Part shown: in pieces, positions 1,836 through 28,558 of the stretch | Layout: the number at the start of each line of letters is the position of its first letter | Position numbering within the stretch: position 1 is the stretch's first letter | Source of the DNA: Candidatus Lambdaproteobacteria bacterium RIFOXYD2_FULL_50_16 | GTDB lineage: Bacteria; SAR324; XYD2-FULL-50-16 | Length of the DNA stretch: 32,155 bases | NCBI GenBank assembly: GCA_001783695.1 | Contig: MFNE01000012.1 | Coordinates: 6,524 to 38,678 of the forward strand | Direction of reading: 5' to 3' | Notes under the pieces: model-generated | What the model was told of the DNA's origin: nothing | Databases searched by the model: none | What the model saw: the letters and a program-made list of their open reading frames with translations, nothing else | Made by a program: the position numbers and the translations under genes

Positions 1836-1918
1836 ATCGCTCGGCTTTGCTTGGCGCCCAAGAAGCTAGTTTTAAATAGCCCTCCGCCCGCTTCTAGCTA
1901 AAGGTTTTAGTCGTAATT

Positions 1919-1940
1919 AGCCTTTGTAAGGCTTTAAATA
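1919..1940 (+). terminator. Possible weak terminator hairpin after priA
   Basis: A perfect 6-bp stem, AGCCTT / AAGGCT, with a TGT loop (1919-1933) is followed by TTAAATAA rather than a clean T-run. It lies about 85 bp after the priA stop. It could end priA transcription; the weak T-tract keeps confidence low. Confidence 0.3.
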
Positions 1941-1962
1941 AACACTAGCTCAACTGAAATAA

Positions 1963-2109
1963 TCAGACTTTGAACCGGCTTACCTGATCTTTTAAGCTAT
2001 CAGCCATCTTGGACAGGTCTTCCAAGGTGATCTCCACTTCAGCTATACGGGCCCCCAGTTGATTCATCGCGGCGGCCCCTTCTGAGGTGCGACTAACCTC
2101 CGTCGACTA
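1963..2109 (-). pseudogene. Decayed C-terminal tail of a methyl-accepting chemotaxis protein
   Basis: On the minus strand a ~48-codon frame runs from a TAG (2107-2109) to a TGA (1963-1965). It contains EVSRTSEGAAAMNQLG, then LEDLSKMADSLKDQVSRFKV at the end. Chemotaxis receptors commonly end in such a glutamate/serine/alanine-rich helical tail closing with 'L...V.RFKV'. No start codon or RBS precedes it, and none of the frames upstream to 2229 continues a receptor. I read this as a remnant of a deleted or degraded receptor gene. The rest of the 1836-2229 gap shows only the small hairpin at 1919. The match is by tail pattern only, so a chance resemblance is possible. Confidence 0.45.
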
Positions 2110-2229
2110 AGTAAAGCGCTGCATAGAGGCAACTGGCCTATAAAATCGAGGCCAAGCTAGACACGGGGGCCATCGGTGAGTAAAGTTTGACTCGTCCCGC
2201 TTCCAGACCACATCCAATAGAGCAAAAAC

Positions 2230-2991
2230 ATGGATTTCCCCTTCGAACGGATTGCCCCTCTGCGCCAAGTTTTAAAAGAACACCCTGTGTATCAGGCGGT
2301 TAATACGATGGAGCAGCTGCGCCGATTTATGGAGCGTCATGTTTTTTCGGTTTGGGATTTTATGTCACTCGTCAAAACCATTCAGGCGGAAATTGCCCCT
2401 CACGGATATCCTTGGGGCCCAGGCAAAAACCCAATGATTCAACGCTTTATTAATGAAATTGTCTTGGAAGAAGAAACCGATATCGCCCCTGACAAAAAGA
2501 CCTACCTAAGCCATTTTGAGATGTATATCAGCGCAATGGAGGAGGTGGGAGCCAACACAAGCGTAGTAAGGGCGTTCTCTAGGCTGGCCAAGATCAAGGG
2601 GTTCGATATCGCCTACCGCGATGTCGAGGTACCCAAAGCTTCATTAGAATTTATGCAGACCACCTTTGGGTTTATTAAGCAAGGGAAGCCTCACAAAGTG
2701 GCCGCTGCATTCGCATTGGGCCGCGAGCATATTATCCCCACTATGTTCCGCTCCCTCTTGGCTAAGATGAATTGCACCGAGTCTCAAGCCCCCTATTTCC
2801 ACTACTACCTAGAGCGCCACATTCTCTTAGACCAAGATCATCATGGTCCCCTTTCGATGCAAACCCTTTTCGAATTGTGCAAAGAAGACCCACGCCTGAT
2901 CAAAGAGGCCGAAGAGGCGGCGGTGCAGGCCATCGAGGCTAGGATCCGCTTTTGGGATCAAGTGGTAATCGACCTTTCTAAAACCAACTAG
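2230..2991 (+). CDS. DUF3050 family protein, heme-oxygenase-like fold
   Basis: The 253-residue product matches my recollection of the DUF3050 family nearly end to end: HPVY near the start, RRFMERHVFSVWDFMSL (31-47), INEIVLEEE (74-82), SHFEMYISAMEEVGA (94-108), GREHIIPTMF (164-173) and YYLERHILLDQDHHGP (192-207). The family belongs to the heme-oxygenase/TenA-like all-helical superfamily. The conserved Glu and His residues in INEIVLEEE and ERH..LDQDHHG resemble the metal ligands of diiron oxidases of that fold, but the substrate is unknown. It is soluble, with no signal peptide. The ATG at 2230 has no clear Shine-Dalgarno. It stands alone, convergent with the CDGSH gene across a shared terminator. 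Family assignment is confident; function is not known. Confidence 0.85.
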   Translation: MDFPFERIAPLRQVLKEHPVYQAVNTMEQLRRFMERHVFSVWDFMSLVKTIQAEIAPHGYPWGPGKNPMIQRFINEIVLEEETDIAPDKKTYLSHFEMYISAMEEVGANTSVVRAFSRLAKIKGFDIAYRDVEVPKASLEFMQTTFGFIKQGKPHKVAAAFALGREHIIPTMFRSLLAKMNCTESQAPYFHYYLERHILLDQDHHGPLSMQTLFELCKEDPRLIKEAEEAAVQAIEARIRFWDQVVIDLSKTN

Positions 2992-2997
2992 TCCAAA

Positions 2998-3035
2998 AAA
3001 AAGCCAACCAGCCACCTTGGGCTAATTGGCTTTTT
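2998..3035. terminator. Bidirectional rho-independent terminator
   Basis: The stem AAAAAGCCAA (2998-3007) pairs with TTGGCTTTTT (3026-3035), with an inner AGCC/GGCT pairing. A-tract and T-tract flanks make it usable from both sides. It sits between the convergent DUF3050 (+) and CDGSH (-) genes. Confidence 0.8.
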
Positions 3036-3057
3036 GCCGAATCCTTGAAAAAACGGA

Positions 3058-3282
3058 CTAAGCCTTGTGTGAGCCGTCACAATAAGGCTTGCCACCGGAC
3101 TTGCCACAGCCGCAGACGTGGATTTTTTTGTCTTCAGTAAAACTTTCAGCAAAGGGTTTCCCGCCTACCGTCTTGTGGGTTCCATCGCAATAAGGGCCGT
3201 TTTTACTTTGCCCACACCCGCACAGGTAAAGGGTCTCGCCCGCTTTCACGTCAATAGAAAAAGGTTTTTGTTGCCAGGACAT
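3058..3282 (-). CDS. Double CDGSH iron-sulfur domain protein
   Basis: This 74-residue protein contains two complete CDGSH [2Fe-2S] motifs: C21-x-C23 ... P-Y-C32-D-G-T-H36, and C57-x-C59 ... P-Y-C68-D-G-S-H72. Both keep the three cysteines and one histidine that bind the cluster. There is no transmembrane anchor, so it is a soluble tandem-motif member, unlike mitochondrial mitoNEET. The family takes part in redox sensing or Fe-S/electron transfer; the partner here is unknown. The ATG at 3282 has GGAG upstream at good spacing. It lies 26 bp behind the DoxX-like gene on the same strand and probably shares its transcript, which ends at the 2998-3035 terminator. Confidence 0.93.
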   Translation of the reverse strand: MSWQQKPFSIDVKAGETLYLCGCGQSKNGPYCDGTHKTVGGKPFAESFTEDKKIHVCGCGKSGGKPYCDGSHKA

Positions 3283-3308
3283 TGGGTCTCCATAAGTGGA
3301 AGGTTAGG

Positions 3309-3701
3309 TTACTTGGGCGAATATTTTTTTTCTAAAATATACGCGACTTGAAAAAGTACCAAAAAGACTAAAGAGGGCGCGAAATATTGCGCTGGGTCAC
3401 CGACAAACAGGTGCGAGGCAAAAGCCCCTAACATAGCGATGGTAAAACCGGCGTGGGCCCATTCTCGAAGCGCCGCAGACCAAGGCTGCCACAAGGCAAT
3501 TATTCCTAGTAAATAGGCGATTCCTAAGATGGTTAATAAATATTCAGGGTAGCCAAGATGGGTCATGTTCCCGACCATCTCGTCCGAATGTAAAAGCTTT
3601 TGGACTCCAGCATTACCCAACGCTAGACTTAGAATTCCACGAATGCCAATCCAAACCCATTTTACCTTGGTTGAAGAGGCGGTATTAATTGGTGTGCTCA
3701 T
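3309..3701 (-). CDS. DoxX-like integral membrane protein
   Basis: A small hydrophobic protein (130 residues from the ATG at 3701) with about four predicted membrane helices: around VWIGIRGILSLALG, YLLTILGIAYLLGIIAL, AGFTIAMLGAFASHLF and APSLVFLVLFQVAYIL. The GNAGVQKLLHSDEMV segment after helix 1 and the overall layout fit the DoxX-like family (DoxX_2). The frame is open to an ATG at 3728, but 3701 has AAGG upstream and gives the more usual N-terminus. DoxX-like proteins are often linked to redox or thiol stress; the reaction is unknown. It leads a two-gene unit with the CDGSH protein and is divergent from a LysR regulator. Confidence 0.75.
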   Translation of the reverse strand: MSTPINTASSTKVKWVWIGIRGILSLALGNAGVQKLLHSDEMVGNMTHLGYPEYLLTILGIAYLLGIIALWQPWSAALREWAHAGFTIAMLGAFASHLFVGDPAQYFAPSLVFLVLFQVAYILEKKYSPK

Positions 3702-3813
3702 GAAGGGATACCTTGATAGGCGGGTCATTAGTTAAAATACATTTACAGCCTAGCCTGGATTTCGATAGAATGATATTATCTTTTTTTAATTATTCTCATA
3801 GAGTTTACCTATC
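3702..3813. promoter_or_regulatory. Divergent promoter/operator region, lysR and doxX-like unit
   Basis: This 112-bp AT-rich gap separates two divergent start codons. It holds an imperfect dyad GATA-N9-TATC (3764-3780), of the general size of a LysR-type T-N11-A site, then a T-run at 3781-3787. LysR proteins classically bind such gaps to control the divergent neighbour and themselves. Assignment is by layout; no -35/-10 pair is convincing. Confidence 0.35.
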
Positions 3814-4695
3814 ATGACCCTCGACCAGATCCTTATTTTTGCCACCATTGCCCAAACAGGTAGTCTGGGTGCCGCCGCAAAAAAACTAAATCGCACCCAA
3901 CCCACCCTGAGTGTTGCCCTTAAAAAATTAGAAGGCGAACTAGGCCTTTTATTGTTCTCTAGGAAGGAATACCGCGTTAGCCTAACACCCGCAGGTCTGG
4001 GATTATTAAAAAAGGCGGAAATTCTACTCAACCAAGCAGAAGAATTTGCCAATTTAGGTAAATATCTGGCCTCTGGGTACGAGACCGAGGTGCAGGTCAC
4101 GTTCGATCCTTTGATCCCAATGCAACCGATCTTGCTGGTTTTAAAGAGCTTCGAGCAAAGATATTGCCACACCCAATTCACTTTGGTGTCGCAATATCTC
4201 TCAGGAGGTGGGGATAAATTGGCCCGCGAAGAGGTGGATTTGGCCTTTATTATCTGGCCGGTTAACCATCAGGCTTTTGATCACCTGAAAGTCTCTGAAC
4301 TTACGATGCAGTTTGTGGTCGGAAAACAATTTCCCTTAAAAAACCCCAACCGTATCTTTAGTTTGGCCGAAATGAAGGATCAAGCGCAGATTGTGATCAG
4401 AGACAGTTCCATAGAACCCAAGCCAGAGCAGTTTAACACAATCAAGGGCGGACGACAGTGGTTTGTGACCGATGCGCAGACCAAAAAGGAAATTATTATA
4501 GCCGGTATGGGTTGGGGAAGCCTTCCCACCCATTTCATCCAAAACGAGTTAACCTGCGGGGATTTAATTAAAATAGAGGTTGAGGGTCTGCCAACCGGGG
4601 AGCCAATCGGGGTATTTCTCTCTAAAAAACGAGGCCGTCCCTTGGGGTTGGTTGCCCAAGAAATATGGAATCAGTTTGAGAAAGCCACCCTTTAA
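3814..4695 (+). CDS. LysR-family transcriptional regulator
   Basis: At 293 residues this is the normal length for the family. The N-terminus has the LysR winged helix-turn-helix: FATIAQTGSLGAAAKKLNRT then QPTLSVALKKLEGELG and LLFSRK (residues ~1-62). A linker helix (LTPAGLGLLKKAEILL) and a periplasmic-binding-protein-like effector domain follow (~90-290), including EEVDLAFIIWP and IAGMGWGSLPTHFI. The effector cannot be read from sequence. It is divergent from the DoxX-like/CDGSH pair, so its likely target is that unit and itself. The first ATG (3814) begins directly before the HTH, as usual. Confidence 0.93.
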   Translation: MTLDQILIFATIAQTGSLGAAAKKLNRTQPTLSVALKKLEGELGLLLFSRKEYRVSLTPAGLGLLKKAEILLNQAEEFANLGKYLASGYETEVQVTFDPLIPMQPILLVLKSFEQRYCHTQFTLVSQYLSGGGDKLAREEVDLAFIIWPVNHQAFDHLKVSELTMQFVVGKQFPLKNPNRIFSLAEMKDQAQIVIRDSSIEPKPEQFNTIKGGRQWFVTDAQTKKEIIIAGMGWGSLPTHFIQNELTCGDLIKIEVEGLPTGEPIGVFLSKKRGRPLGLVAQEIWNQFEKATL

Positions 4696-4714
4696 GGTCA
4701 AAAGAATAGCGTGC

Positions 4715-4744
4715 AAAAAAAAACCCGCCTACGCGGGTTTTTTT
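4715..4744. terminator. Bidirectional rho-independent terminator, lysR/atp cluster
   Basis: A strong CCCGC / GCGGG stem (4724-4728, 4733-4737) with loop CTAC is flanked by nine A and seven T, so it works from either strand. It serves lysR (+) and the end of the atp cluster (-). Confidence 0.9.
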
Positions 4745-4763
4745 AATCGCAAAAACCAGACCT

Positions 4764-5162
4764 CTAAGACTTTGAAGCCAAGAGCCTAGTTTCTGCTTTG
4801 GTTAGTTCCTGGATCAATTTCGCTTCTTCCTTTGAAGACTTCTCACAGGAATTTAGCGCTTCATGGAGCCTTTGCACCTCGGCTTGGGCATGAGCTCCAT
4901 CAATCAACGCGCCCGCTTCAGCTTCTTTGGCCAAGACGGTTACCCGATTGTTAAAGATCTCCGCAAACCCAAAGTGAATCGCAAAGGCTTTTGTTTCTTT
5001 GACGCTTTGATATCTCAACACCCCTGACTTTAAACTGGTCAGCAAGGGAATATGGCCCGCTAAAACCCCCAACTCGCCCAACTCGCCGGGCAGGGTGACT
5101 TCGGTAGTTTCTACCTCCACCATCCGCGCTTTAGGGGTAATGATCTCAAGGATCAAGCTCAT
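4764..5162 (-). CDS. atpC: F1 ATP synthase epsilon subunit
   Basis: This 132-residue protein is the small rotor subunit of F1. It has the epsilon beta-sandwich (ITPKARMVEVETTEVTLPGELGELGVLAGH, with the signature GELGVLAGHIPLLTSL, ~residues 29-45) followed by a C-terminal helical hairpin from ~90. The family couples gamma rotation to the c-ring and can inhibit ATP hydrolysis through its C-terminal helices. It is the last gene of the leftward atp cluster, 8 bp behind atpD, and its transcript ends at the 4715-4744 terminator. The length is normal and the start ATG matches the family N-terminus. Confidence 0.95.
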   Translation of the reverse strand: MSLILEIITPKARMVEVETTEVTLPGELGELGVLAGHIPLLTSLKSGVLRYQSVKETKAFAIHFGFAEIFNNRVTVLAKEAEAGALIDGAHAQAEVQRLHEALNSCEKSSKEEAKLIQELTKAETRLLASKS

Positions 5163-5170
5163 CTAATCTC

Positions 5171-7470
<2,300 letters not shown>

Positions 7471-7476
7471 ATTAGA

Positions 7477-8997
<1,521 letters not shown>

Positions 8998-9531
8998 TTA
9001 AATTCCCCGTGCAATGGTTTCTTTGATCATATTGAGCCGGTTTTTGACGCTGCCGTCCAGCACCAGGCTGCCGATTTGGGTAATGGCACCGCCCAAGATC
9101 GATTTATCTACCTCGACCTCCAACGACACCTCTAGTTGGGTATATTCCGAAATTTTCTTGGTTAAGCCTTTAACCTCGGCATTGGTCAATTCAAAGGCGG
9201 TAACCATCTTTGCTTTGCCTCGACCCAGCTTTTGCAAGGCCATCTTTTCGAAGGCGTTGGCCACTTGAGGGATCAAGGTAAAACGGTTTTTATGGGCCAG
9301 GAAACGGGCAAATTTAGTGGTTTGTGCCTCTAAGCCCATTGCCTTAGCAATCTCGCCGATGGTCCGTTCTTTGGCTCCCGTTCCCAATTTGGGCGCGGCG
9401 ATTAAGGCCAGAAAGTCTGGATTTTCGCTATAAGCCGAAGCCAGGGCGTTTAGTTCTTCAGCCGTTTTAGACGGGTCTGGGCTCAGCCCCAGAAGGGCTT
9501 TGGCGTATCGTTTGGCGATGACTCCTTCCAT
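8998..9531 (-). CDS. atpH: F1 ATP synthase delta subunit (OSCP)
   Basis: A 177-residue peripheral-stalk subunit that joins the b/b' stator to the top of F1. It opens with the typical IAKRYAKALLGL, has a helical N-terminal domain, and ends with the delta signature region DKSILGGAITQIGSLVLDGS then VKNRLNMIK (~142-171). Its position between atpF and atpA, with 1-bp and 3-bp gaps, is standard. Sequence between the ends is poorly conserved, as usual for delta; length and both signatures support the call. Confidence 0.95.
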   Translation of the reverse strand: MEGVIAKRYAKALLGLSPDPSKTAEELNALASAYSENPDFLALIAAPKLGTGAKERTIGEIAKAMGLEAQTTKFARFLAHKNRFTLIPQVANAFEKMALQKLGRGKAKMVTAFELTNAEVKGLTKKISEYTQLEVSLEVEVDKSILGGAITQIGSLVLDGSVKNRLNMIKETIARGI

Positions 9532-9532
9532 A

Positions 9533-10087
9533 TTAACCGTCCAGCCGTTCTATATAGGTTTTCATCAAGCCTTTTTGCTCTTTGGCCCCAACCGATTCTT
9601 TGATTTGAAGTTCTGCAAGCTTGCAGGCTTCCTCTGCCAAAAACTGGCGAATCTCGGCCTTGGCTTTGTTCAGGTTTTGTTCCATCAGCATGGTCGCGTT
9701 TTTTTCGATCATCGCTGCATGAGCCTTGGCTTCAGCTATAATCTTGTTCTTCTCGGCTTCAATTGCGGCTTGAGCGGCTTTATTGCGCTCTGCAAGGAGA
9801 GATTCCTCTTCAGCCATCTGCTTTTTAAAGGCTCGGAGCCGCTCTTCGGCCTCCTGTACGGCTTTCTTTTTTTCGTCGAACTCTTCTTTTTTAGCTATAG
9901 AAGCGTCTCGCATCATTTTAGCTAGAGGCTTTTTAGCGAAGTAGTGCAGCGCAATTAAAAGCATCAAGAAGTTGAGGGCCTTAAACAGCATGGTCGAGCC
10001 CAACATCCCTTCCCCTCCACTCGCATGTTCAGCGGCAAAGGCTAGGCTAGGGGATAACATTAAAAGCGAGCTAAGGATTTTTTTCAT
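9533..10087 (-). CDS. atpF: F0 ATP synthase b subunit with signal-like N-terminus
   Basis: A 184-residue stator subunit. It begins with a hydrophobic signal-peptide-like stretch (MKKILSSLLMLSPSLAFA, residues 1-18, with an AFA-A cleavage-like site), then a second hydrophobic segment (LFKALNFLMLLIALHYFAKKPL, split here as residues 34-55). From ~60 to 165 there is a long Lys/Glu/Ala-rich coiled coil. An extra N-terminal hydrophobic leader is known from b subunits of several deltaproteobacterial-type clusters. It follows the b' gene by 1 bp and precedes atpH by 1 bp. b and b' here would form a heterodimeric stalk. Which of the two is named b or b' is by convention. Confidence 0.9.
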   Translation of the reverse strand: MKKILSSLLMLSPSLAFAAEHASGGEGMLGSTMLFKALNFLMLLIALHYFAKKPLAKMMRDASIAKKEEFDEKKKAVQEAEERLRAFKKQMAEEESLLAERNKAAQAAIEAEKNKIIAEAKAHAAMIEKNATMLMEQNLNKAKAEIRQFLAEEACKLAELQIKESVGAKEQKGLMKTYIERLDG

Positions 10088-10088
10088 G

Positions 10089-10550
10089 TTAGCTCGCCAG
10101 TGCTTTGGTTTGGATCATCCCCGCCAAACCACCAGCCAAGTCTTTGGCTTCGGCCAGCGCTGACTTCAGTTCGTTAGCAATTTCCACCTCGGCCTGTTCG
10201 ATCACCTTTTGGGATTTTTCTTTGGCCATATCGGTCAATTGCGCGGCCTCGGCCAAGGCTTCACTTAAAGCCTTTTTGTGGGCTTCCTCGTTTTTCTTTT
10301 GTCCAGCTTTGAGGGCTTCCTCGTAATGTGCCTGGAGGTTTTTAAGTTCATTTTTGGTATCTTCTAAACGCTCGTTCCCGCCAGCCATCACCGCCTTACG
10401 GGATTCCAGGGTGGAAACCAGGGGCTTGAGTAGCAGCAGGTTCAAAAGAACCAGAGTGACCACAAACACGACGAGGATAAACAGCGCCGTCGGCCATTCC
10501 ATGTGTAAAACGCCGAAATTAAAAACTTCGCCGTACCTTTGGTGTTCCAT
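10089..10550 (-). CDS. atpF': F0 ATP synthase b' subunit (second stator subunit)
   Basis: This 153-residue protein has one membrane helix (WPTALFILVVFVVTLVLLNL, ~residues 19-38) followed by LLLKPLVSTLESRK and a long charged alpha-helical tail, the architecture of the b/b' family. It is the first gene of the atp cluster, so the a (atpB) and c (atpE) genes must be elsewhere in the genome. The ATG at 10550 has no clear Shine-Dalgarno; an ATG at 10502, just before the membrane helix, is a possible alternative. A sigma70-like promoter lies about 50-75 bp upstream. Also called atpX in some genomes. Confidence 0.88.
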   Translation of the reverse strand: MEHQRYGEVFNFGVLHMEWPTALFILVVFVVTLVLLNLLLLKPLVSTLESRKAVMAGGNERLEDTKNELKNLQAHYEEALKAGQKKNEEAHKKALSEALAEAAQLTDMAKEKSQKVIEQAEVEIANELKSALAEAKDLAGGLAGMIQTKALAS

Positions 10551-10597
10551 CGAGAGGGCTTTAAAAGAGGCGTGATTAACTGACTAAAAACACCCAA

Positions 10598-10626
10598 GAA
10601 GTACCAATGGCCCCAACCTGTGTCAA
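10598..10626 (-). promoter_or_regulatory. Candidate sigma70-type promoter of the atp cluster
   Basis: On the minus strand a perfect -35 TTGACA (10621-10626) is followed after 17 bp by TACTTC (10598-10603), a weak -10. It stands about 50 bp upstream of the b' start and would begin the seven-gene transcript. The -35 and spacing are ideal; the -10 is poor. Confidence 0.5.
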
Positions 10627-10704
10627 TACCAAAGGCTAAAAAAGATTGATTCAAAATCAGGAATGAACTAGTATAAGGGGCTTTAAGTCCAACCCAGTCT
10701 TGAG

Positions 10705-11409
10705 GTGAAGAAGGTGAGGCTAACCTGTGATTTTTTAGTGCCTGCGGCGGGCCTAGGGGCGCGGATGGGGACAGGGAGCAACAAATTATTTTTGGAACTC
10801 CAAGGCAAACCCATCTTGGAACACACCTTGCGGGCGATCAGCCAGCTTGAAGGAGTGGGCCGGATGTTAGTGATGATTCGCCCAAAAGAAAGGGCTGAGA
10901 TCGAAGAGGCTTTGGCCCCATTGGGACTGGATTCGGGCAGGTTAATATTGGTGGAGGGCGGTCCAGAGCGGGCAGACTCGGTGCGTAACGGGCTAAAATA
11001 TCTAATCAAGAACCCAGGGGCGCCAATCGTGATGACCCACGATGGAGCCCGGCCCTTTTTAAGTAAGCCGATCTACCAAAGCCTATTAAAGGCCTTAGAG
11101 ACCCACCAAGCCGCCGTCCCAGCCCTGCCCATCGCCGAAACCTGCCGCCGATTGGCGCCAAACGGACAAACCAGCCTAGTGGATCGCGAGGGCCTATACA
11201 CCACCCAAACCCCCCAAGCCTTTTGGTTTAGCGAGGTTCACTCTGTTTTTTTTGGGGAATTAGCTCAGGTGAGTCTTACCGACGAGGCCGGTTACTTTGA
11301 GCGGCTTGGCCGTTCCTTGGCGTTGGTGCCAGGAGAACCAACTAACATCAAGATCACCAGGCCCCCAGACCTGGAGTTGGCCAAGCTTTTTATCGCCCGG
11401 CCTGCCTAG
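10705..11409 (+). CDS. ispD: 2-C-methyl-D-erythritol 4-phosphate cytidylyltransferase IspD
   Basis: IspD transfers CMP from CTP to methylerythritol 4-phosphate in the MEP route to isoprenoids. The 234-residue protein has the nucleotide-binding start PAAGLGARMG (13-22) with K27, the central HDGARPF (112-118), TPQAF and TDEAGYFE, and the C-terminal EPTNIKIT..DL (~211-225), all typical. The chosen start is GTG (10705); no strong Shine-Dalgarno decides it. A TATAAG -10-like box lies at 10672-10677. The gene stands alone, divergent from the atp cluster and convergent with the FecR-domain gene, 6 bp away. ispF is not adjacent. Confidence 0.95.
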   Translation: MKKVRLTCDFLVPAAGLGARMGTGSNKLFLELQGKPILEHTLRAISQLEGVGRMLVMIRPKERAEIEEALAPLGLDSGRLILVEGGPERADSVRNGLKYLIKNPGAPIVMTHDGARPFLSKPIYQSLLKALETHQAAVPALPIAETCRRLAPNGQTSLVDREGLYTTQTPQAFWFSEVHSVFFGELAQVSLTDEAGYFERLGRSLALVPGEPTNIKITRPPDLELAKLFIARPA

Positions 11410-14537: not shown

Positions 14538-15652
14538 ATGAAGATAAGAGTAGAAAAGAGAACTTTACTAGATGCTTTAGGCTTGGTTCAAGCTATTTGC
14601 AGTAAAGCGACTTCTGAACATATCATCAATAATCTTTTGATTAAAACCAGTTCTGGTGGGGTGACTTTAAGGGCAACCAACTATGAACTGACCTTTGAAG
14701 GTAGTTTTCCTGCCGAGATATTACAAGAAGGGGAAATCTGTTTAAACTCAACTAAACTGTTTAATTTGGTGAGAAACTTCCAGGGTTTAGAGATTGAGTT
14801 CAATTCAACCCCGCAAAACTGGGTTTTTCTAACCAGCGGAAGTTCCCAAGTAAAGTTACCTGGGATCGATCCAGAGATGTATCCGCCGATTGATTTTAAA
14901 GAGCTTGAGTGTCATTTCAAATTTGACAGCAACCTACTTAAAACTGCCATTGAACGGACCTATTTTGCGATTGGTGAAAATGAGTCTCGTAAAAATTTAA
15001 TGGGTTTAAACCTAGAGATAATTGGTTCGGACCAGCTTCGATGGATGGGGGCAGACGCTTTTAGGATCAGCCAAATCATCACCAACACCCCTTCGACCTT
15101 GGATCTAAAAGGAAACATTATTATCCCCAAGAAAAGCCTACCTGAAATTAAAAAAATTATTGATTTCAGTGCAGGTGAAGTGGATATCTCTTTTGATGAA
15201 AGTGTTTTCCAGGTTTTTACCTCTCAAGTTAAGTTTAAAACCCGGTTGATTGAAGCCGAGTTTCCTAACCTAGAAAGTCTGCTTTCTCAAGTAGCCCCCA
15301 TTCAGATCAATCTTCCAAAACAGGATTTGATCAACGCAGTTAACATTTTGAACACCTTGACCGATACCGACCACAACGCAGTGATGAAGTTGAGCTTAGG
15401 TTCAGGTGAAGTGGTGGTTGAATCACAAAAGTTGGAATATGGAGAAGCAAACGACCGTATTGCTTGTGATTATAGGGGGGAAGAGATGGCGATAGGCCTA
15501 AATATCCAATTTTTACTAGAAGCCCTTAGGGCCTTTGATCAAGCTCCAGGCGAGATGGTAACCTTTCATGTGATTGGACCAGTGGCCCCCTTGATGATTA
15601 CCTCAGCAGGGTGGGAACAATACAAGTCGATTTTAATGCCTGTTAAAATCAA

Positions 15653-15659
<7 letters not shown>
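14538..15659 (+). CDS. dnaN: DNA polymerase III beta sliding clamp DnaN
   Basis: The 373-residue protein is the ring-shaped processivity clamp. It starts MKIRVEKRTLLDAL and is made of three similar ~120-residue clamp folds. Recognisable points are ATNYELTFEG in domain 1, the GENESRKNLMGLNLEI segment in domain 2 (~155-170), and the end of domain 3, where the family's hydrophobic cleft sequence MPVKIKW closes the protein (family form MPM R/K). Length is normal. It lies downstream of dnaA, and its final codons overlap recF by 7 nt, so the two are probably translationally coupled. Confidence 0.97.
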
Positions 15660-19112
<3,453 letters not shown>

Positions 19113-19215: not shown

Positions 19216-19245
19216 TTGTCATAGTAAAGGTTCTTGGGGTATTTT
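19216..19245 (+). promoter_or_regulatory. Candidate promoter of the K+ uptake operon
   Basis: TTGTCA (19216-19221) is followed after 18 bp by TATTTT (19240-19245). It lies between the gyrB terminator and the channel gene. If real, transcription would begin near 19252, so translation could not begin at the TTG at 19234, supporting the TTG at 19309 as start. Confidence 0.4.
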
Positions 19246-19308
19246 CAGACTAGCCAAAACTCGATTCTAGGTTCCTCAAAAGCCAACCTTTCAGTAAGGT
19301 TAAACCTA

Positions 19309-21321
19309 TTGGTAACGCAAGTTCCTGCCTATTCCCGATTTTCCTACGTGGGGCTGGAGGGGGTTCTGTTGACCCTGTTTCCAACGCCCTTTTTGCTAGT
19401 TAGCTGGGGCCCAGCGAACTGGGGCTGGGCTTGGCCGTGGATATTGGCCGGGGTGGCTTCTGGGTCGGGACTTGGGGCTGGCCTCGCCCTATACCGTTTT
19501 ATCACCTGGGGTAAATTTTTTAGCAGCCTAGGCCTCTGCGCCTTGGCCGCATTGACCTCATCTCACTGGATCACCGATCCCTTTGCCGCCTTTTTGGGAG
19601 CGATAGGTTTTATTTTTATTGGTTTTTCGCTATTCCAATTCAAGCCCCATTTAAATCCAGAAAAAACAAGCGACTCTCAGGTCCGTGCCGACCAAAGGTT
19701 ACTTTGGGGGTTGATCAGTCTATTGACCCTGTCCACTTGGATACTGCTCTTTACCCCAATCGAAGAAATCCTTACCCGCGCCGTACTATTAACCACCTTT
19801 GGATTGGTTTTGGTCTTAGGGGCCCGCTGGGCTTGGCTCTTAAGAAAAAAGAAAATCCTCTTAATACTGGCCGCTGTGTTGGTTTTGGGTGGTGTCTTAG
19901 CGTGGCTTTCAGCCGCCTCGTTACTAGTCTTGAGCGCGACTGGAAGTGCTTTGCTTTGGCGAATTTTACTAAAGTCCCAGACCTTTTCATCGCGGGTTCA
20001 ACTCTGGCGACCTAAAGCAATGGTCAATCCCGCCCAGATCTTGCCAATCACTTTCTTTTTATTGTGCCTTATCGGCAGTTTCCTCTTGGCCTTGCCAGGG
20101 GCCTCAACCCAAGGGATTTCGATTTTAGATGCGGCTTTTACCTCGGTGAGCGCAGTTTGTGTTACGGGCCTGATTGTCTTGGATACCCCCAAAGACTTCA
20201 CCGGCTTAGGCCTGGGGATTATTTTAATTCTAATCCAGCTGGGTGGTTTGGGGATCATGAGTTTAACCACACTAGCCCTACACGCCATTGGCCAGCGGTT
20301 AAGCCTCAAACAAGAGCGGCTAATGGTGGCCGTAACTCAAACTGACCGTTCTGATTTGATTACGTCTTTAGTTTTTATCATTAAATTCACCTTGGTCTGT
20401 GAGTTAAGTGGCGCGGTGCTGCTCACCTTGCTTATACACGGGGAGGGCCAGGGTTGGGGGGCCGCTTTATGGCAGGGACTGTTTACGGCGGTATCAGCCT
20501 TTTGCAACGCCGGGTTTGCCCTATGGAGCGATAGTTTGATCCCGTACCAGCAAAACATTTTTATCTTACAAACCGTGTCATTTTTGATCATCCTCGGCGG
20601 ATTAGCCCCGGCAACCTGTCTGATGGCTCCCCGCTGGATCAAGGGCGAGCCGATCCCCCTTGCCTTTCGGATTCCCTTGGTGACAACGGCGGTATTGTTG
20701 GGTTCGGGGACCCTGCTGCTGTTGATGTTTGAGTGGAACGGGTTTTTAAGCGGACTCAGTTGGGTGGATAAACTCAGCAACGCTTGGTTTCAATCGGTTA
20801 CTTTGCGCACCGCCGGTTTTAATTCGGTGGACTTAGCTCAAATTAGTGGACCGACTTATTTGATTATGTTGCTTTTTATGATTATCGGCGGCAGCCCGGG
20901 GGGCACTGCGGGCGGGGTGAAAACCGCTACATTTGGTGTTTTAGCCCTTATTTTTTGGGCGACAGTCACTGGCAAATCGAAGGTGATTGTGCAAAACCGA
21001 CGCATTCCCCCCGAACTGGTCTATCGGGCCATAGCGATCTTGGTCGGCTACGGGGTGGTGGGGCTGTCCCTTTTGATGATGTTGGAGGTCACCCAACCGC
21101 AGATCCCCGCTTGGGAGTTAGTGTTTGAGACGGTCTCAGCGATAGGTACAGTGGGTTTGAGTGTAGGGGCCACCTCGCAGCTTGATGAGGTGGGCAAAAT
21201 CATCGTGATGTTTGCTATGTTCGCCGGACGCATCGGCCCGGTGACTCTGTTTATGATGCTTCATATCGAACCGAGCCGTTCTATGTCCCAATATACCGAT
21301 GCCAAAATCGCCCTCACCTGA
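19309..21321 (+). CDS. TrkH/KtrB-type potassium channel subunit with long N-terminal membrane extension
   Basis: This is the ion-conducting subunit of a Ktr/Trk K+ uptake system. The C-terminal ~430 residues form the four-repeat TrkH/KtrB fold, with selectivity-filter loops SAVCVTGLI, SAFCNAGFAL, SVTLRTAGFNS and SAIGTVGLSVG, and the GGSPGGTAGGVKT intramembrane-loop motif. About 240 residues precede this core, with seven or so further hydrophobic segments, which E. coli TrkH and Bacillus KtrB lack. The frame is open to a TTG at 19234. I chose the TTG at 19309 because TAAGG stands 9 bp upstream and a candidate promoter overlaps 19234. ktrA follows 11 bp later behind a strong GGAGG. Confidence 0.88.
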   Translation: MVTQVPAYSRFSYVGLEGVLLTLFPTPFLLVSWGPANWGWAWPWILAGVASGSGLGAGLALYRFITWGKFFSSLGLCALAALTSSHWITDPFAAFLGAIGFIFIGFSLFQFKPHLNPEKTSDSQVRADQRLLWGLISLLTLSTWILLFTPIEEILTRAVLLTTFGLVLVLGARWAWLLRKKKILLILAAVLVLGGVLAWLSAASLLVLSATGSALLWRILLKSQTFSSRVQLWRPKAMVNPAQILPITFFLLCLIGSFLLALPGASTQGISILDAAFTSVSAVCVTGLIVLDTPKDFTGLGLGIILILIQLGGLGIMSLTTLALHAIGQRLSLKQERLMVAVTQTDRSDLITSLVFIIKFTLVCELSGAVLLTLLIHGEGQGWGAALWQGLFTAVSAFCNAGFALWSDSLIPYQQNIFILQTVSFLIILGGLAPATCLMAPRWIKGEPIPLAFRIPLVTTAVLLGSGTLLLLMFEWNGFLSGLSWVDKLSNAWFQSVTLRTAGFNSVDLAQISGPTYLIMLLFMIIGGSPGGTAGGVKTATFGVLALIFWATVTGKSKVIVQNRRIPPELVYRAIAILVGYGVVGLSLLMMLEVTQPQIPAWELVFETVSAIGTVGLSVGATSQLDEVGKIIVMFAMFAGRIGPVTLFMMLHIEPSRSMSQYTDAKIALT

Positions 21322-21332
21322 TTGGAGGAAAC

Positions 21333-21995
21333 ATGTTGCAGCAAATCTTGATAATTGGTCTGGGGCATTTTGGTATGTCTTTGGCCCGGGCATTGTCAGA
21401 TAAAGGGGCCGAGATCTTGGCGATTGATACCAACATTCAGCTGATCAACGAGGTTTCCTTGTTTGTGGCCGATGCGGTTTGTATGGATGCCACTGACGAA
21501 GCCGAGTTGGCCAAGTTAGAGCCATGGAAAAGGGACGCGGCGGTCTGTTGTATCGGTGACGATTCCAAGGAGGCTTCGATTATTGTCACCGCACTTTTAC
21601 GCCAGATGGGAACAAAACTGGTGGTTTCCAGGGCTAATGACGCGGTGCACCAACGTATTTTACAATTAGTTGGAGCCCACCAAATCCTCAATCCAGAGCA
21701 AGAGTTTGGCAAACGCTTCGCCAATCGCTTACTTTTCCGACACCTCATGGCTGACGCCCCTTTAGGGGATGATTTACAGCTCGCCGAGGTAATGGTGCGC
21801 GCAGAAATTGTTGGGCAAAATCTAGCTGAATTAAAATTACCCAAGCGTTTCGGTGTCTTGGTGGTTGGTGTCCGCCGGGGGCCGACGGGACGGATTTTGC
21901 AGCCCTCCCCTCACGAATCTTTGCAAGCGGATGACATCCTATTGGTCGTCGGCAATGAGGAAGCCATTCCCAAATTTTTAAAGGGGATCGCATGA
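21333..21995 (+). CDS. KtrA/TrkA-type RCK regulatory subunit of K+ uptake
   Basis: This 220-residue cytoplasmic protein has a Rossmann RCK-N domain with GLGHFG (9-14) and an acidic residue at the end of beta-2 (D32), which bind NAD(H) or ATP/ADP in the family. DATDEAELAKL and VSRAND are typical RCK-N blocks. An RCK-C (TrkA-C) domain follows (~135-220): AEVMVRAEIVGQNLAELKLP, then DDILLVVGNEE. A single RCK-N/RCK-C pair is the KtrA layout; E. coli TrkA has two. It would form the gating ring beneath the channel encoded just upstream. The ATG overlaps no gene; its 3' end overlaps the next ATG by 4 nt. Confidence 0.94.
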   Translation: MLQQILIIGLGHFGMSLARALSDKGAEILAIDTNIQLINEVSLFVADAVCMDATDEAELAKLEPWKRDAAVCCIGDDSKEASIIVTALLRQMGTKLVVSRANDAVHQRILQLVGAHQILNPEQEFGKRFANRLLFRHLMADAPLGDDLQLAEVMVRAEIVGQNLAELKLPKRFGVLVVGVRRGPTGRILQPSPHESLQADDILLVVGNEEAIPKFLKGIA

Positions 21996-22723
21996 ACCAT
22001 TTTGGCCAATCCTTAAAGCTGGCGCTTTGGGCATTGATTCTGTTGAATTTATTGATGGCTTTGGGGTCGATTTGGGTGTTTATGCGGATGTCGCCTGTCA
22101 TTGAATCCATTATTGACCGTAACGAAAAATCCCTACAAGCCTCAGAGGAAATGTTGTCCCAGTTGGCGTTGACCTCAAATCCAGCTAATTTGGAAGAGCA
22201 AGTAAAGGTCTTTGAAAACGCCTTAAAAAGGGCGATGAACAACATTACTGAACCCAATGAACCCGCGGTATTAGATCAAATCCAAGCCCAGTATCAGGAT
22301 GCTTTTGCCAACAAACCTCTGGCACGGGAGAGCGTAGTTGAGGCGATTGGTCAGCTTGGTCAAATCAACCGCCAAGCCATGTACGACGCTGATGTTCGGG
22401 CCAAACAACTTGGATTTGCGGGCGCATGGGGGGTTGTGTTTATGGCGTCAGGGGTTTTTTTGGCAGGTCTTTTACTGCAACGTTTTTTGGCACTTAATCT
22501 AGTGCGACCCTTAAATGAGATCCATGAGGTTTTGATGGCGCACCATGCGGGTGACCCTTACCGTCGAGCGGTGACCCAGGCCTTGCCCAATGATGTCCGG
22601 CCCGTATTAGACGAATTGAATCACTTTTTAGATCAGCTTGAAAAGGAGCATGCCCAACAAGGTTTCAAAAAACCGCAAATCAGTGGGAATACGGTGGTCG
22701 AGCCTACCCCGAGGGTTGGCTAA
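21992..22723 (+). CDS. Two-helix membrane protein, sensor-like with HAMP-like segment and no output domain
   Basis: The 243-residue product has an N-in membrane helix (9-31), a ~110-residue mostly helical, Glu/Gln-rich periplasmic region (32-140) and a second membrane helix (141-164). Then comes a HAMP-like stretch starting LNLVRPLNEIHEVLMAHHAGD (split as residues 168-188) and LNHFLDQLEKE. This is the front half of a chemoreceptor or sensor kinase, but the chain ends ~40 residues later without kinase, cyclase or receptor signalling domain. The ATG overlaps the ktrA stop (ATGA), so it is probably made with the K+ transporter. I do not recognise a named family. A role in K+ channel regulation is inference only. 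Confidence 0.75.
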   Translation: MNHFGQSLKLALWALILLNLLMALGSIWVFMRMSPVIESIIDRNEKSLQASEEMLSQLALTSNPANLEEQVKVFENALKRAMNNITEPNEPAVLDQIQAQYQDAFANKPLARESVVEAIGQLGQINRQAMYDADVRAKQLGFAGAWGVVFMASGVFLAGLLLQRFLALNLVRPLNEIHEVLMAHHAGDPYRRAVTQALPNDVRPVLDELNHFLDQLEKEHAQQGFKKPQISGNTVVEPTPRVG

Positions 22724-25131: not shown

Positions 25132-25733
25132 TGGGGCGGCTTTATGATAAGGCCCAGCGGTTGGCTGAAGCCTTAGTAGATGGAGCCCCTTACGGAGGGG
25201 CGGCCCAGATTGAGGCCTTGATTGATCAAGCCCTTAGGCTTTCTGAACCTCTTGAGCGTTCTGAGACCCAAGCCTTGCCCGAGACGGGAGGGGTAATCCG
25301 TATTTGGGCCGACGGGGCCTGCGAAGGCAACCCCGGTCCTGGCGGTTGGGGCACGATTGTAGAGATCAACGGAGTGCGCCAAGAGTTATCTGGCGGAAAG
25401 GCCAAAACCACTAATAATGTGATGGAGATGACCGGGGCCTTAGAAGGGCTTAAAGCCTGCCCCAGAGGGGCCAAGGTCGAGCTGACCAGCGATTCGCAAT
25501 ATGTGGTCAAGGGAATGACCGAGTGGATTAGAGGTTGGATCAAAAAGGGATGGCGCAAGGCGGACGGCCAACCTGTAGCCAACCGGGAGCTTTGGGAAGC
25601 GTTATTAGAAGAAGTGGAAAGTCGCCAAGTTAAGTGGCTCTGGGTCAAGGGGCACGCAGGGCACCCCGAAAACGAACGTTGCGATGAACTAGCGAGGGAA
25701 GCGGTACCCGGAGCGAGTCAACGTTCCTTTTAA
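25131..25733 (+). CDS. rnhA: Ribonuclease HI with ~50-residue N-terminal extension
   Basis: RNase HI cleaves the RNA strand of RNA:DNA hybrids. The C-terminal ~145 residues carry all catalytic residues: D61 (ADGACEGNPGPGGWG), E99 (MEMTGALEGL), D121 (TSDSQYV), H175 (KGHAGHPENE) and D185 (RCDELA). The basic-loop region WIRGWIKKGWR is also present, as in E. coli RNase HI. Residues 1-~54 form an extra helical, alanine- and leucine-rich segment that is not the eukaryotic hybrid-binding domain and that I do not recognise. ATG overlaps the proA stop (TAATG). At the 3' end its stop and that of the opposing cyaA-like gene share TTAA. Confidence 0.93.
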   Translation: MGRLYDKAQRLAEALVDGAPYGGAAQIEALIDQALRLSEPLERSETQALPETGGVIRIWADGACEGNPGPGGWGTIVEINGVRQELSGGKAKTTNNVMEMTGALEGLKACPRGAKVELTSDSQYVVKGMTEWIRGWIKKGWRKADGQPVANRELWEALLEEVESRQVKWLWVKGHAGHPENERCDELAREAVPGASQRSF

Positions 25734-28558
25734 TCCTCGACCTTTTTTCGACGGGCCTTGGTTTGTTGGACCATCTCTTTTTTAAAGTGCTTGGCTAAAT
25801 CCTGCTCTTTTTTAGCTTGCTTGATCCCCCCATGGCCCGAGCGGGCGCAATTCAGATTAACCCAAAAGGCAACCCGGTCTTTGTTGAGGTCGGTAAGCCG
25901 AAACTTTTGGGCCGCAAAAAATCCCTTTATGGTCTCCGCCAAGACAGGGTGGCCCAAAAGCACCTCCCAAGCCTCGTAAAGCTGGTCTGCCTGCTCTTCT
26001 AATTCGGGGTGCTCAAAGAAGTCCATGTACCAGACCTTCATGTTGTCCCGGTACAGGATCGAAAGACTGCCAAATTCCAGCAAACTCAAACAAATAAAGA
26101 TATCGGTCACCTCCCGCTTTTTGTTTATACAGTCGCGGTAGTCATAGGTTTGGGGGACAAAATGCTCCTTGATCTGCTCAATCATCCGTACAGCCAGGTC
26201 TGGTGTCAGATAAGCGTATTCGTTGGCCGAGCGTTTGCCCAAGTTCATGTGGGCCACGGAAAACTCCACCTGGGTATGGGATTCGTAGAGGGTCCCTTTT
26301 TTGAACACACCGTAGTAACCGTTCATAATACAATGGGCGATCCCATGTAAAAAGCTAGGGTGTTCTAAGAGTACAACCTCATCAGGCAGATGTTCTAGGG
26401 CCTCGTCTGAGAAATTTTGTTTAGCGTCTCCGGCGGCTCCTTTTTGTAAGGATTTAAAAAACCATAGTTTGCGGTTTTGGTCGTAGCCGATCTGCAACCG
26501 ACCCCGGGCGACCTTGAGGTGCGTCAAAATGTCGAGCCGGACTACGTTGGGTTTGGGGTCGAAGTTGGTTTGGTAATAGTGGTACCAAATGCTGTATTCG
26601 TCACGGTTGGTTTTGTCGGTCTCTGCACTCTGCTCCACCATCCGGTTGACCCGGTTCATGCTGCCTTTAAACAGGCTTCTAAGCTCTTCTTCAAAGAGGT
26701 TGACCGCCTGCACCTCCCCCATAAAGATATGCTCAATACGCACCCGCTTGGATAGGGGGAAGGCCTTTTCTAAAAAGTGCCTTAGTACTTTGTCTCGATG
26801 GCTCATTTCCTTGCCTTTTTCTGGAGGGGCAAAGACGTCAGAGATGCGAATATGCAGCGCAAAACCAAGATCAATCGTAGCCGAGATGGCCGCTCGTTCT
26901 TCAGCACTTTCCACCGTCCGGTTGGCCTCGGAGAAGCCAATTTTAAGGGCTTTATAGCGGAGCCACCAGGGATCTTCGGTCAGTAAGGGGTACAGCTCTT
27001 CCATACGGAAAATCTCTTGGACACTTAAGCCTGCGGCAAAGTCGGCTTCCCCTAAAATCTCGTCCTCTTCCTCGCTGGTTTCTTCACCGTAAGAGACACC
27101 ATAATCGTTAAAGAATTCCTCTTCCTTTTCGTTTTCATCCGTATCTAGCGTCCCAGAGCCGGGCATTTTTTCCTCACCTGTAACAAAGGTATCAAGCTTG
27201 TGGGGATCTTTGATCAGCTCGATCATGCTGGTGTCAAAACGGCTGTCAAACAACATTTCAATACGCAGCAGGTTTAGTAGCGCTTTGGGCAGGTTTCCCG
27301 AGCTGGCTTTAAAGGACTCCCAATAAATAGCCCCGGCGTGAGCCACCATATAGGATTGAGTCAAGGGCGGGGTGCTGCCTAAATCTACCAATCGGACCCC
27401 AAAGGGGTCATATAGGTCGATAAAGTGATACCGTAAATAATTAACCAGCCGCTCATATTGATTGCGGTTGGCGTTGACCTCTGGGGGCATTAAAAAATGG
27501 ATAGGCACCATAGGTGTAAACTGAATCCCAGGCATTAACACCTCGTAGTTAAGGATCAGCTCATAAGCCGAACCAGAGGCTTCCTTTGATTCTAGGGTGG
27601 TGCCATGTTTGCCGTCGCGGTAGTCGTCGTTGGAGTAGGCGAAGAGGTAGATCTCGGCCTTGGGATATTTAGACTGGATATAGTCCTGAATCCCTTTGAT
27701 CCGCTTTTTGAGCAGGCCATCATTTTTTTGGCGTTCGGCCTTAAGGCAATACTTGCGGTGCAGGTTGACCATGGCAACTATCTCATGGATCAAATCGATT
27801 TTTTTATCCTGCTTAACTTGGAACTGCTCCCCTTTTTTAATCAATAAGGCATGATAGAGGATAGGGAAACGGCGTTTGAAGTCTTGTTTGCCCGCTGCGA
27901 CAATCTCGTTTTTAATCTTGGGGTCGCCTAGGTGTTTTTGGGTGTATTTCTTTTTAGCGGCGTAAACCCGGCCAAAGTAGTGGATCAGCCCAGTGCCAAA
28001 CTTTAAGAGGTGTTCGTCGGTTAGATCTTGTTCGCGGTATAAAAACGGGCTTAGTTCGAACTGGACTTGGAGGTCTAGGTCGCTAGTAATTTTGTGGCCG
28101 ATGGTGCCAATAGAACCTAGACTGGCTACTGAATAGATTGGTTGAAACCCTTCGGGTGCAGGCACATCGGACTTCAATTCGGCCTGGATAAAGGCCTGGA
28201 AATCGTCTTTAAACTGGCCCGAAAGTTGGTGAATCCCCTCGACCCCACAAGGAGCGCCTTCTAAGTAAAGGTTAACCTCTTTGGTGACAGGCACCTCTTT
28301 TTTGGTACCTTCGACCTTGGTTATTTCGAGGGTGGTGTAGGTGTGCTGCTTAAAGCGGGGGTTGTTGACATGTAAGAAGAAAAGGATCTCATAAAGCGCC
28401 TTCTTCATGTCGTCAGAAAAATTGGAGAAAGCCAACTTTAGCCGGGACTCATTAAAGTCCTCAAAAAAGGCTCCTCCCTTCTCTACCGAGCGGGTTAGCT
28501 CCTCTTTTTTGGCGGCCCCTAAACGAATGCTGCCAGCTATTTGGCTATAAAGAGACAA
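25730..28558 (-). CDS. Class I adenylate cyclase homologue (CyaA-like), with insertion
   Basis: This 942-residue protein resembles enterobacterial CyaA by position-by-position comparison from memory. The nucleotidyltransferase site LGSIGTIGHKITSDLDLQV (147-165) matches the CyaA form MGS..S.GQ..SSDLDIWV, with G148-S149 and the D160/D162 metal pair. AEIYLFAYSNDDYR (301-314) matches VEVSFFLIDENRF. LVDLGSTPPL and YWESFKAS..LPKALLNLLRIEML (390-436) match WLDLGGL... and Y.AVLKTLLLEAY. About 100 extra residues (roughly 170-300) lie between the first two blocks, and a very acidic linker spans ~472-507. The TTG start (28558) has GAGG 5 bp upstream, inside the end of trpA. Activity is inferred. Confidence 0.8.
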   Translation of the reverse strand: MSLYSQIAGSIRLGAAKKEELTRSVEKGGAFFEDFNESRLKLAFSNFSDDMKKALYEILFFLHVNNPRFKQHTYTTLEITKVEGTKKEVPVTKEVNLYLEGAPCGVEGIHQLSGQFKDDFQAFIQAELKSDVPAPEGFQPIYSVASLGSIGTIGHKITSDLDLQVQFELSPFLYREQDLTDEHLLKFGTGLIHYFGRVYAAKKKYTQKHLGDPKIKNEIVAAGKQDFKRRFPILYHALLIKKGEQFQVKQDKKIDLIHEIVAMVNLHRKYCLKAERQKNDGLLKKRIKGIQDYIQSKYPKAEIYLFAYSNDDYRDGKHGTTLESKEASGSAYELILNYEVLMPGIQFTPMVPIHFLMPPEVNANRNQYERLVNYLRYHFIDLYDPFGVRLVDLGSTPPLTQSYMVAHAGAIYWESFKASSGNLPKALLNLLRIEMLFDSRFDTSMIELIKDPHKLDTFVTGEEKMPGSGTLDTDENEKEEEFFNDYGVSYGEETSEEEDEILGEADFAAGLSVQEIFRMEELYPLLTEDPWWLRYKALKIGFSEANRTVESAEERAAISATIDLGFALHIRISDVFAPPEKGKEMSHRDKVLRHFLEKAFPLSKRVRIEHIFMGEVQAVNLFEEELRSLFKGSMNRVNRMVEQSAETDKTNRDEYSIWYHYYQTNFDPKPNVVRLDILTHLKVARGRLQIGYDQNRKLWFFKSLQKGAAGDAKQNFSDEALEHLPDEVVLLEHPSFLHGIAHCIMNGYYGVFKKGTLYESHTQVEFSVAHMNLGKRSANEYAYLTPDLAVRMIEQIKEHFVPQTYDYRDCINKKREVTDIFICLSLLEFGSLSILYRDNMKVWYMDFFEHPELEEQADQLYEAWEVLLGHPVLAETIKGFFAAQKFRLTDLNKDRVAFWVNLNCARSGHGGIKQAKKEQDLAKHFKKEMVQQTKARRKKVED

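Follow-up and report, generated by a model that had tools for sequence, protein, structure and literature searches.

A kinase-less sensor-like membrane protein is encoded directly behind ktrA and accompanies an N-terminally extended KtrB

The window analyzed here, a stretch of 32,155 nucleotides from Candidatus Lambdaproteobacteria bacterium RIFOXYD2_FULL_50_16, contains on its forward strand a ktr cassette that consists of genes for a channel subunit (KtrB), an RCK subunit (KtrA) and a small membrane protein that we refer to as SP. The features of the cassette are the following:

19234..21321, forward strand: KtrB/TrkH-type channel subunit with an N-terminal membrane extension, 695 aa, from an uncertain TTG start (PF02386)
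19234..20028, forward strand: N-terminal extension of KtrB, about residues 1-265, with roughly eight predicted helices (AlphaFold2 model)
21333..21995, forward strand: KtrA, a single RCK subunit, 220 aa (TrkA_N 3.9e-23, TrkA_C 6.4e-17)
21992..22723, forward strand: SP, a kinase-less sensor-HAMP-like protein, 243 aa (ORF, translation, AlphaFold2, neighbourhoods)
22025..22081, forward strand: TM1 of SP, about residues 12-30 (hydropathy)
22088..22420, forward strand: predicted periplasmic four-helix bundle of SP, about residues 33-143 (AlphaFold2 model)
22421..22489, forward strand: TM2 of SP, about residues 144-166 (model, hydropathy and site conservation)
22490..22657, forward strand: HAMP-like segment of SP, about residues 167-222 (model and site conservation)

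The window KtrB carries the TrkH/KtrB channel domain (PF02386, E 9e-57) over residues 244-686 only, and the model of this core matches a solved KtrB (7zpr_G; 36% identity, TMt 0.88). Four glycines (G312, G427, G528 and G641), which we take to be those of the selectivity filter, one per P-loop of four, are invariant across 18 aligned KtrBs, and the window KtrA has the TrkA_N and TrkA_C domains of a separate one-RCK subunit. With its channel core and single RCK subunit (TrkH, TrkA_N, TrkA_C), the cassette resembles KtrAB of Bacillus subtilis and Vibrio alginolyticus, but it differs from both in about 250 extra N-terminal residues of KtrB and in the third gene. An earlier note on this DNA, made from the sequence alone, had spoken of the channel simply as KtrB; with an extension of about 250 residues in a protein of 695 aa in total, it is not an ordinary one. 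The KtrB model is of moderate quality (mean pLDDT 72.5, residues 1-36 under 50), and a Foldseek search with the whole model gave no separate match to the extension among the PDB matches listed. At one surveyed locus (L140, 3925-5969) the extension has an ORF of its own ahead of the core (177 aa, matching the KtrB profile), and at another (L058, 6114-8293) it is apparently a separate ORF ahead of the core (242 aa). The window's genome also encodes a second KtrB/TrkH of 445 aa (L019, 6800-8137 of G000:C39), with no RCK-like ORF beside it in the ORF list.

The ATG of SP sits inside the ATGA that closes ktrA, an overlap that the earlier note had described and that the ORF coordinates (21992-22723 against 21333-21995) bear out. 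Two membrane segments are apparent by hydropathy (residues ~12-30 and ~140-166), and the AlphaFold2 model (mean pLDDT 85.1, from an alignment of 16 sequences) has helices at residues 3-59, 64-83, 90-105, 109-185 and 203-222, giving a predicted order of TM1, periplasmic four-helix bundle, TM2 and a HAMP-like pair. Hydropathy and model thus confirm the two membrane helices and the helical periplasmic region that had been claimed. The HAMP-like segment, also part of that claim, is assigned by position and homology, and a NarQ HAMP fragment aligns with it. Pfam makes no HAMP call in the window SP; of 14 family members, 4 give a PF00672 match at E<=0.1 (lowest E 0.0075), and a Nannocystis member (L043) has a HAMP score of 27.6 against the Pfam cut-off of 25. 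Neither Pfam nor NCBIfam has a model that scores above its cut-off in the window SP, and none comes near it across 14 members; KinB_sensor (PF16767) scores 14.4 bits, below its cut-off of 27, and 4HB_MCP_1 (PF12729) is not listed for this protein in the Pfam search. As the earlier note had held, there is no kinase or receptor module: HisKA, HATPase, receptor and cyclase domains are all absent at cut-off from the window SP, and a profile of the kinase core, made from 29 related kinases, matches 0 of 62 SP homologues, whose C-terminal ends are about equal to that of SP or carry extra sequence without a kinase core. The possibility raised there, that a frameshift conceals a kinase or other output domain after SP, can be rejected, given these homologues and the NUDIX gene that follows on the opposite strand and faces SP.

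To survey the neighbourhood of SP relatives, we scanned named genomes with KtrB as seed and obtained 80 loci, 16 of which have SP behind ktrA. These 16 come from Desulfobacterota, Lentisphaerota, Myxococcota, Bdellovibrionota and bacterium ADurb.Bin157, with Desulfocicer vacuolatum DSM 3385 and Victivallis vadensis DSM 14823 as cultured strains, and the cassette also occurs in the window's own phylum; a first scan of genome contigs with KtrB alone had found no relative, and a plasmid search gave no match. We also searched with an SP profile (A8) regardless of KtrB, a profile that favours linked relatives since it was built from KtrB-linked members. Whole-genome profile searches score only the best first-pass candidates per genome, and one SP search at E<=1e-6 matched 16 of 18 genomes, missing the Nannocystis SPs. 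Neighbourhoods were retrieved for most of the genomes that matched. Taking each distinct protein once, at E<=1e-12 (n=62, which leaves out L039, L043 and L045 although SP follows ktrA there), we found a ktrA-type RCK gene directly upstream of SP at 57 of 62 loci. Where 700 nt or more of upstream sequence is available, the figure is 56 of 58 loci, and where 3000 nt or more is available, KtrB lies upstream at 50 of 51. For loci that the profile found in genomes not selected by KtrB, the RCK gene is present in 41/45, or 41/43 testable ones, and four further loci from the phylum of genome G068 have KtrB, RCK gene and SP in that order.

Five of the 62 loci lack the upstream RCK gene. Two lie at contig ends (L190 and L181), one has the gene order SP-ktrB-ktrA (L013), one is a fragment overlapping a KtrB fragment (L236), and the last (L206, 1981-3270) is truly orphaned: a phage integrase gene lies nearby, and its genome (G612) has no KtrB at E<=1e-40. 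Among the 58 testable loci, those not directly behind ktrA are this orphan and a broken SP fragment in genome G614. A family scattered away from K+ transporter genes, which the earlier note had named as evidence against its reading, is therefore not what the survey of conserved neighbours returned, the orphan and the fragment being the exceptions, and we reject it apart from G612.

Co-occurrence gives the same picture. In the phylum of genome G058, 35 of 395 genomes match the SP profile at E<=1e-6; just six do so at E<=1.3e-78, and the next match stands at 1.2e-15, where full-length kinases begin. A profile of the extended KtrB finds the same six (E<=9.7e-227, the next at 2.1e-143), one of which is the seed genome. 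Matches to SP were also found in 37 of 235 genomes at 1e-8 in the phylum of G069, in 9 of 288 in that of G064 and in 11 of 195 in that of G068. The N-terminal extension of about 250 residues is a feature of the SP-linked KtrB clade: in a tree built on KtrB cores, with the extension left out, a 62-row branch (SH-aLRT 97) contains every SP-linked KtrB. Six of its rows are labelled 'other' (L043, L045, L032, L040, L044 and L089). L043 and L045 do have SP; the sequences of L032, L040 and L044 stop short of the SP position, and the genomes of L032 and L040 (G063 and G071) contain SP beside an RCK gene. This leaves L089, with an extended KtrB and KtrA and no SP behind them, as the sole true SP-less row. 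Other KtrBs have shorter N-terminal extensions. The extension is thus not confined to loci with SP, whereas SP is almost never seen apart from an extended KtrB. Together, neighbourhood and co-occurrence strongly support the suggestion that SP is accessory to the Ktr channel.

SP has relatives among sensor kinases. A genome of the window's own family (G009) carries both a kinase-less sensor-PAS-like protein that overlaps an extended ktrB (L013; BLASTP with SP 2e-10) and a full histidine kinase within a large Trk/Ktr cluster (L014; 9e-9). This latter K+ cluster (1328-11319) comprises an NtrC-like regulator, the 4HB-HAMP-PAS histidine kinase, a receiver, RCK genes, TrkH, KtrB, KtrA and a predicted exchanger. 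Foldseek matched the SP model to NarQ (2.4e-4) and the KinB sensor aligned over 102 residues (rmsd 1.9, 18% identity). A NarQ sensor-TM-HAMP fragment aligned with SP residues 1-220 over 206 residues (rmsd 3.2, Z 12.0), a Z near the level that chance can give for helical bundles, given how common four-helix bundles are, and the NarQ-like fold of the model is no proof of function. By sequence, predicted fold and tree, SP corresponds to the sensing part of histidine kinases like NarQ and KinB, sharing with these the order TM1, bundle, TM2 and HAMP-like segment; it differs from them in having no kinase, membrane-edge and HAMP residues of its own, and no family match above cut-off. To the kinases of Trk/Ktr operons (L014, L151 and L066) it is likened by a homologous sensor and HAMP, and in L151 and L066 also by the place behind ktrA; these kinases, unlike SP, retain PAS, HisKA and HATPase.

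In a tree of the sensor region (without the short or fragmentary rows L004, L110, the second of L128, L181, L195 and L236, and without rows with fewer than 120 matched positions), a branch supported at 98/99 has 52 core SPs on one side and 30 kinases on the other. Myxococcota-type members and L013 join the SPs at 93/75, which is not firm. Two Riflebacteria loci (L054, 7282-8493, and L090, 5676-7046) have kinase-less HAMP proteins, one with a PAS domain, as third gene behind ktrA; these group with the kinases on a long branch outside the SP clade, a position that suggests a second, independent kinase loss. Full kinases lie directly behind ktrA at L151, L131, L132 and L066, likely the ancestral arrangement, with the direction of loss inferred. 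The SP of the window falls together with Desulfobulbaceae rows (91/91), which may point to acquisition by horizontal transfer. Within the window's phylum the profile matches 2 of 52 genomes at 1e-6, strongly in G000 (5e-93) and weakly in G009 (1.5e-15), a distribution that disfavours inheritance within the phylum. Homology to kinase sensor halves might also mean that SP is a decoy which weakens the signalling of related histidine kinases by pairing with them; we regard this as highly improbable, in that SP accompanies the extended KtrB across phyla and not kinases, and that the window's own genome has no SP homologue at E<=0.001 besides SP itself.

We then compared conserved sites between the 52 SPs and the 30 kinases. 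A polar motif in the bundle (N44, S47, N84, T86, E90 and N126) is conserved in both, as are P173, G187 and N210. Conserved in SPs only are R32 (100% of the 52) and P35 (98%), just outside TM1, G144 and W146 at the outer end of TM2, and R191-R192 and D214 in the HAMP-like segment, to which P173 and G187 also belong. The shared sites indicate that the sensing and HAMP architecture was retained, while those found in SPs only, at the outer membrane edge and in the HAMP, could mark where a new membrane partner binds. That SP might be a subunit needed to assemble or stabilize the extended channel, without a role in sensing, would suit its tight linkage to and co-occurrence with the extended KtrB and the conserved membrane-edge residues; we find it distinctly unlikely, as such a subunit would not require the polar motif or the HAMP-like segment. 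The kept kinase motif would also be expected of a split sensor half serving a kinase core encoded elsewhere, with transcription of the ktr operon as output, and so would the full kinases of the same architecture at the same place behind ktrA. A parallel is the naturally truncated KdpD-N of Deinococcus and cyanobacteria, which is reported as a sensor fragment that lacks the kinase and belongs to an operon for K+ transport (PMC5716572). The likeness is one of description, which also sets the two apart: the transporter there is Kdp, and Deinococcus has the kinase half in an operon of its own next to kdp (PMC5716572). Around SP, a kinase core or receiver lies within 4 kb at 2 of 62 loci and is absent at 60, with a receiver within 4 kb at 13 of 16 related-kinase loci, and the SP-specific membrane-edge and HAMP residues differ from those of kinases as if the partner had changed; a split sensor seems to us unlikely.

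The gene appears to be under constraint. Three close SP pairs have dN/dS of about 0.15, 0.24 and 0.13, indicating purifying selection, and homologues that are 24-55% identical to the window SP hold the same position in other phyla, so SP is not a chance ORF. The missing output half, the fragment in G614 and a copy in G121 whose match crosses one in-frame TGA and whose ORF starts late (L139, 428-1102; it may be broken or misassembled) could be read as signs of a decaying kinase-gene remnant with no present function. This reading is scarcely credible against the purifying selection, the many sites that are 80-100% conserved among the 52 members and the single supported clade that SPs form.

We lean slightly towards the view that SP is a dedicated third component of a distinct Ktr system, in which extended KtrB, KtrA and SP together would carry an external cue through the HAMP-like segment to the channel. 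SP would have descended from, or share an ancestor with, a NarQ/KinB-like sensor half of the kind found beside Trk/Ktr genes. As a dimer, its periplasmic bundle would read an ion, a solute or the state of the envelope, and TM2 and the HAMP-like segment would relay the change inward. The reader of this change would be the channel, through either the KtrB membrane extension or the ring of KtrA subunits, rather than a histidine phosphorylation site, so that the cue would tune K+ uptake at once by direct contact and gating. More tentatively, and with somewhat less than even confidence, we propose that SP is a captured kinase sensor whose HAMP acts directly on the extended KtrB or on KtrA, so that an extracytoplasmic ligand would control K+ uptake immediately and without phosphorylation, with the KtrB extension as the docking site. 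The control known for Ktr channels comes from within the cell, through nucleotides at KtrA and through Na+. Should the ktr operon indeed encode a conserved sensor that faces outward, this would be an unexpected added input and would mean that a sensor of the two-component type now acts on a channel instead of through phosphorylation, with the KtrB membrane extension as candidate partner. In V. alginolyticus, the KtrB N-terminus is reported to be a short disordered stretch that transmits the KtrA signal to the pore (PMC12059179), which makes the extended N-terminus, by analogy, a plausible receiver of the SP signal.

Among known systems, KtrE (slr1508) is set apart from SP by its description as a glycosyltransferase. 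It is named with KtrA and KtrB as part of the transporter KtrABE of Synechocystis (PMC2874817). The SP-bearing cassette is a variant of the Ktr system, for which neither KdpD-N nor KtrE is the same thing. In agreement with the earlier note, which knew of no such component described for Ktr systems, our searches of the open-licence literature on Ktr/Trk found no sensor third gene of ktrBA.

Elsewhere in the window, the minus strand at 25730-28558 encodes a protein of 942 aa that we assume to be class I adenylate cyclase-like. Directly before the ktr cassette (14538-19112) lies a gene order that seems to resemble dnaN-recF-gyrB, so the cassette may be close to the replication origin.
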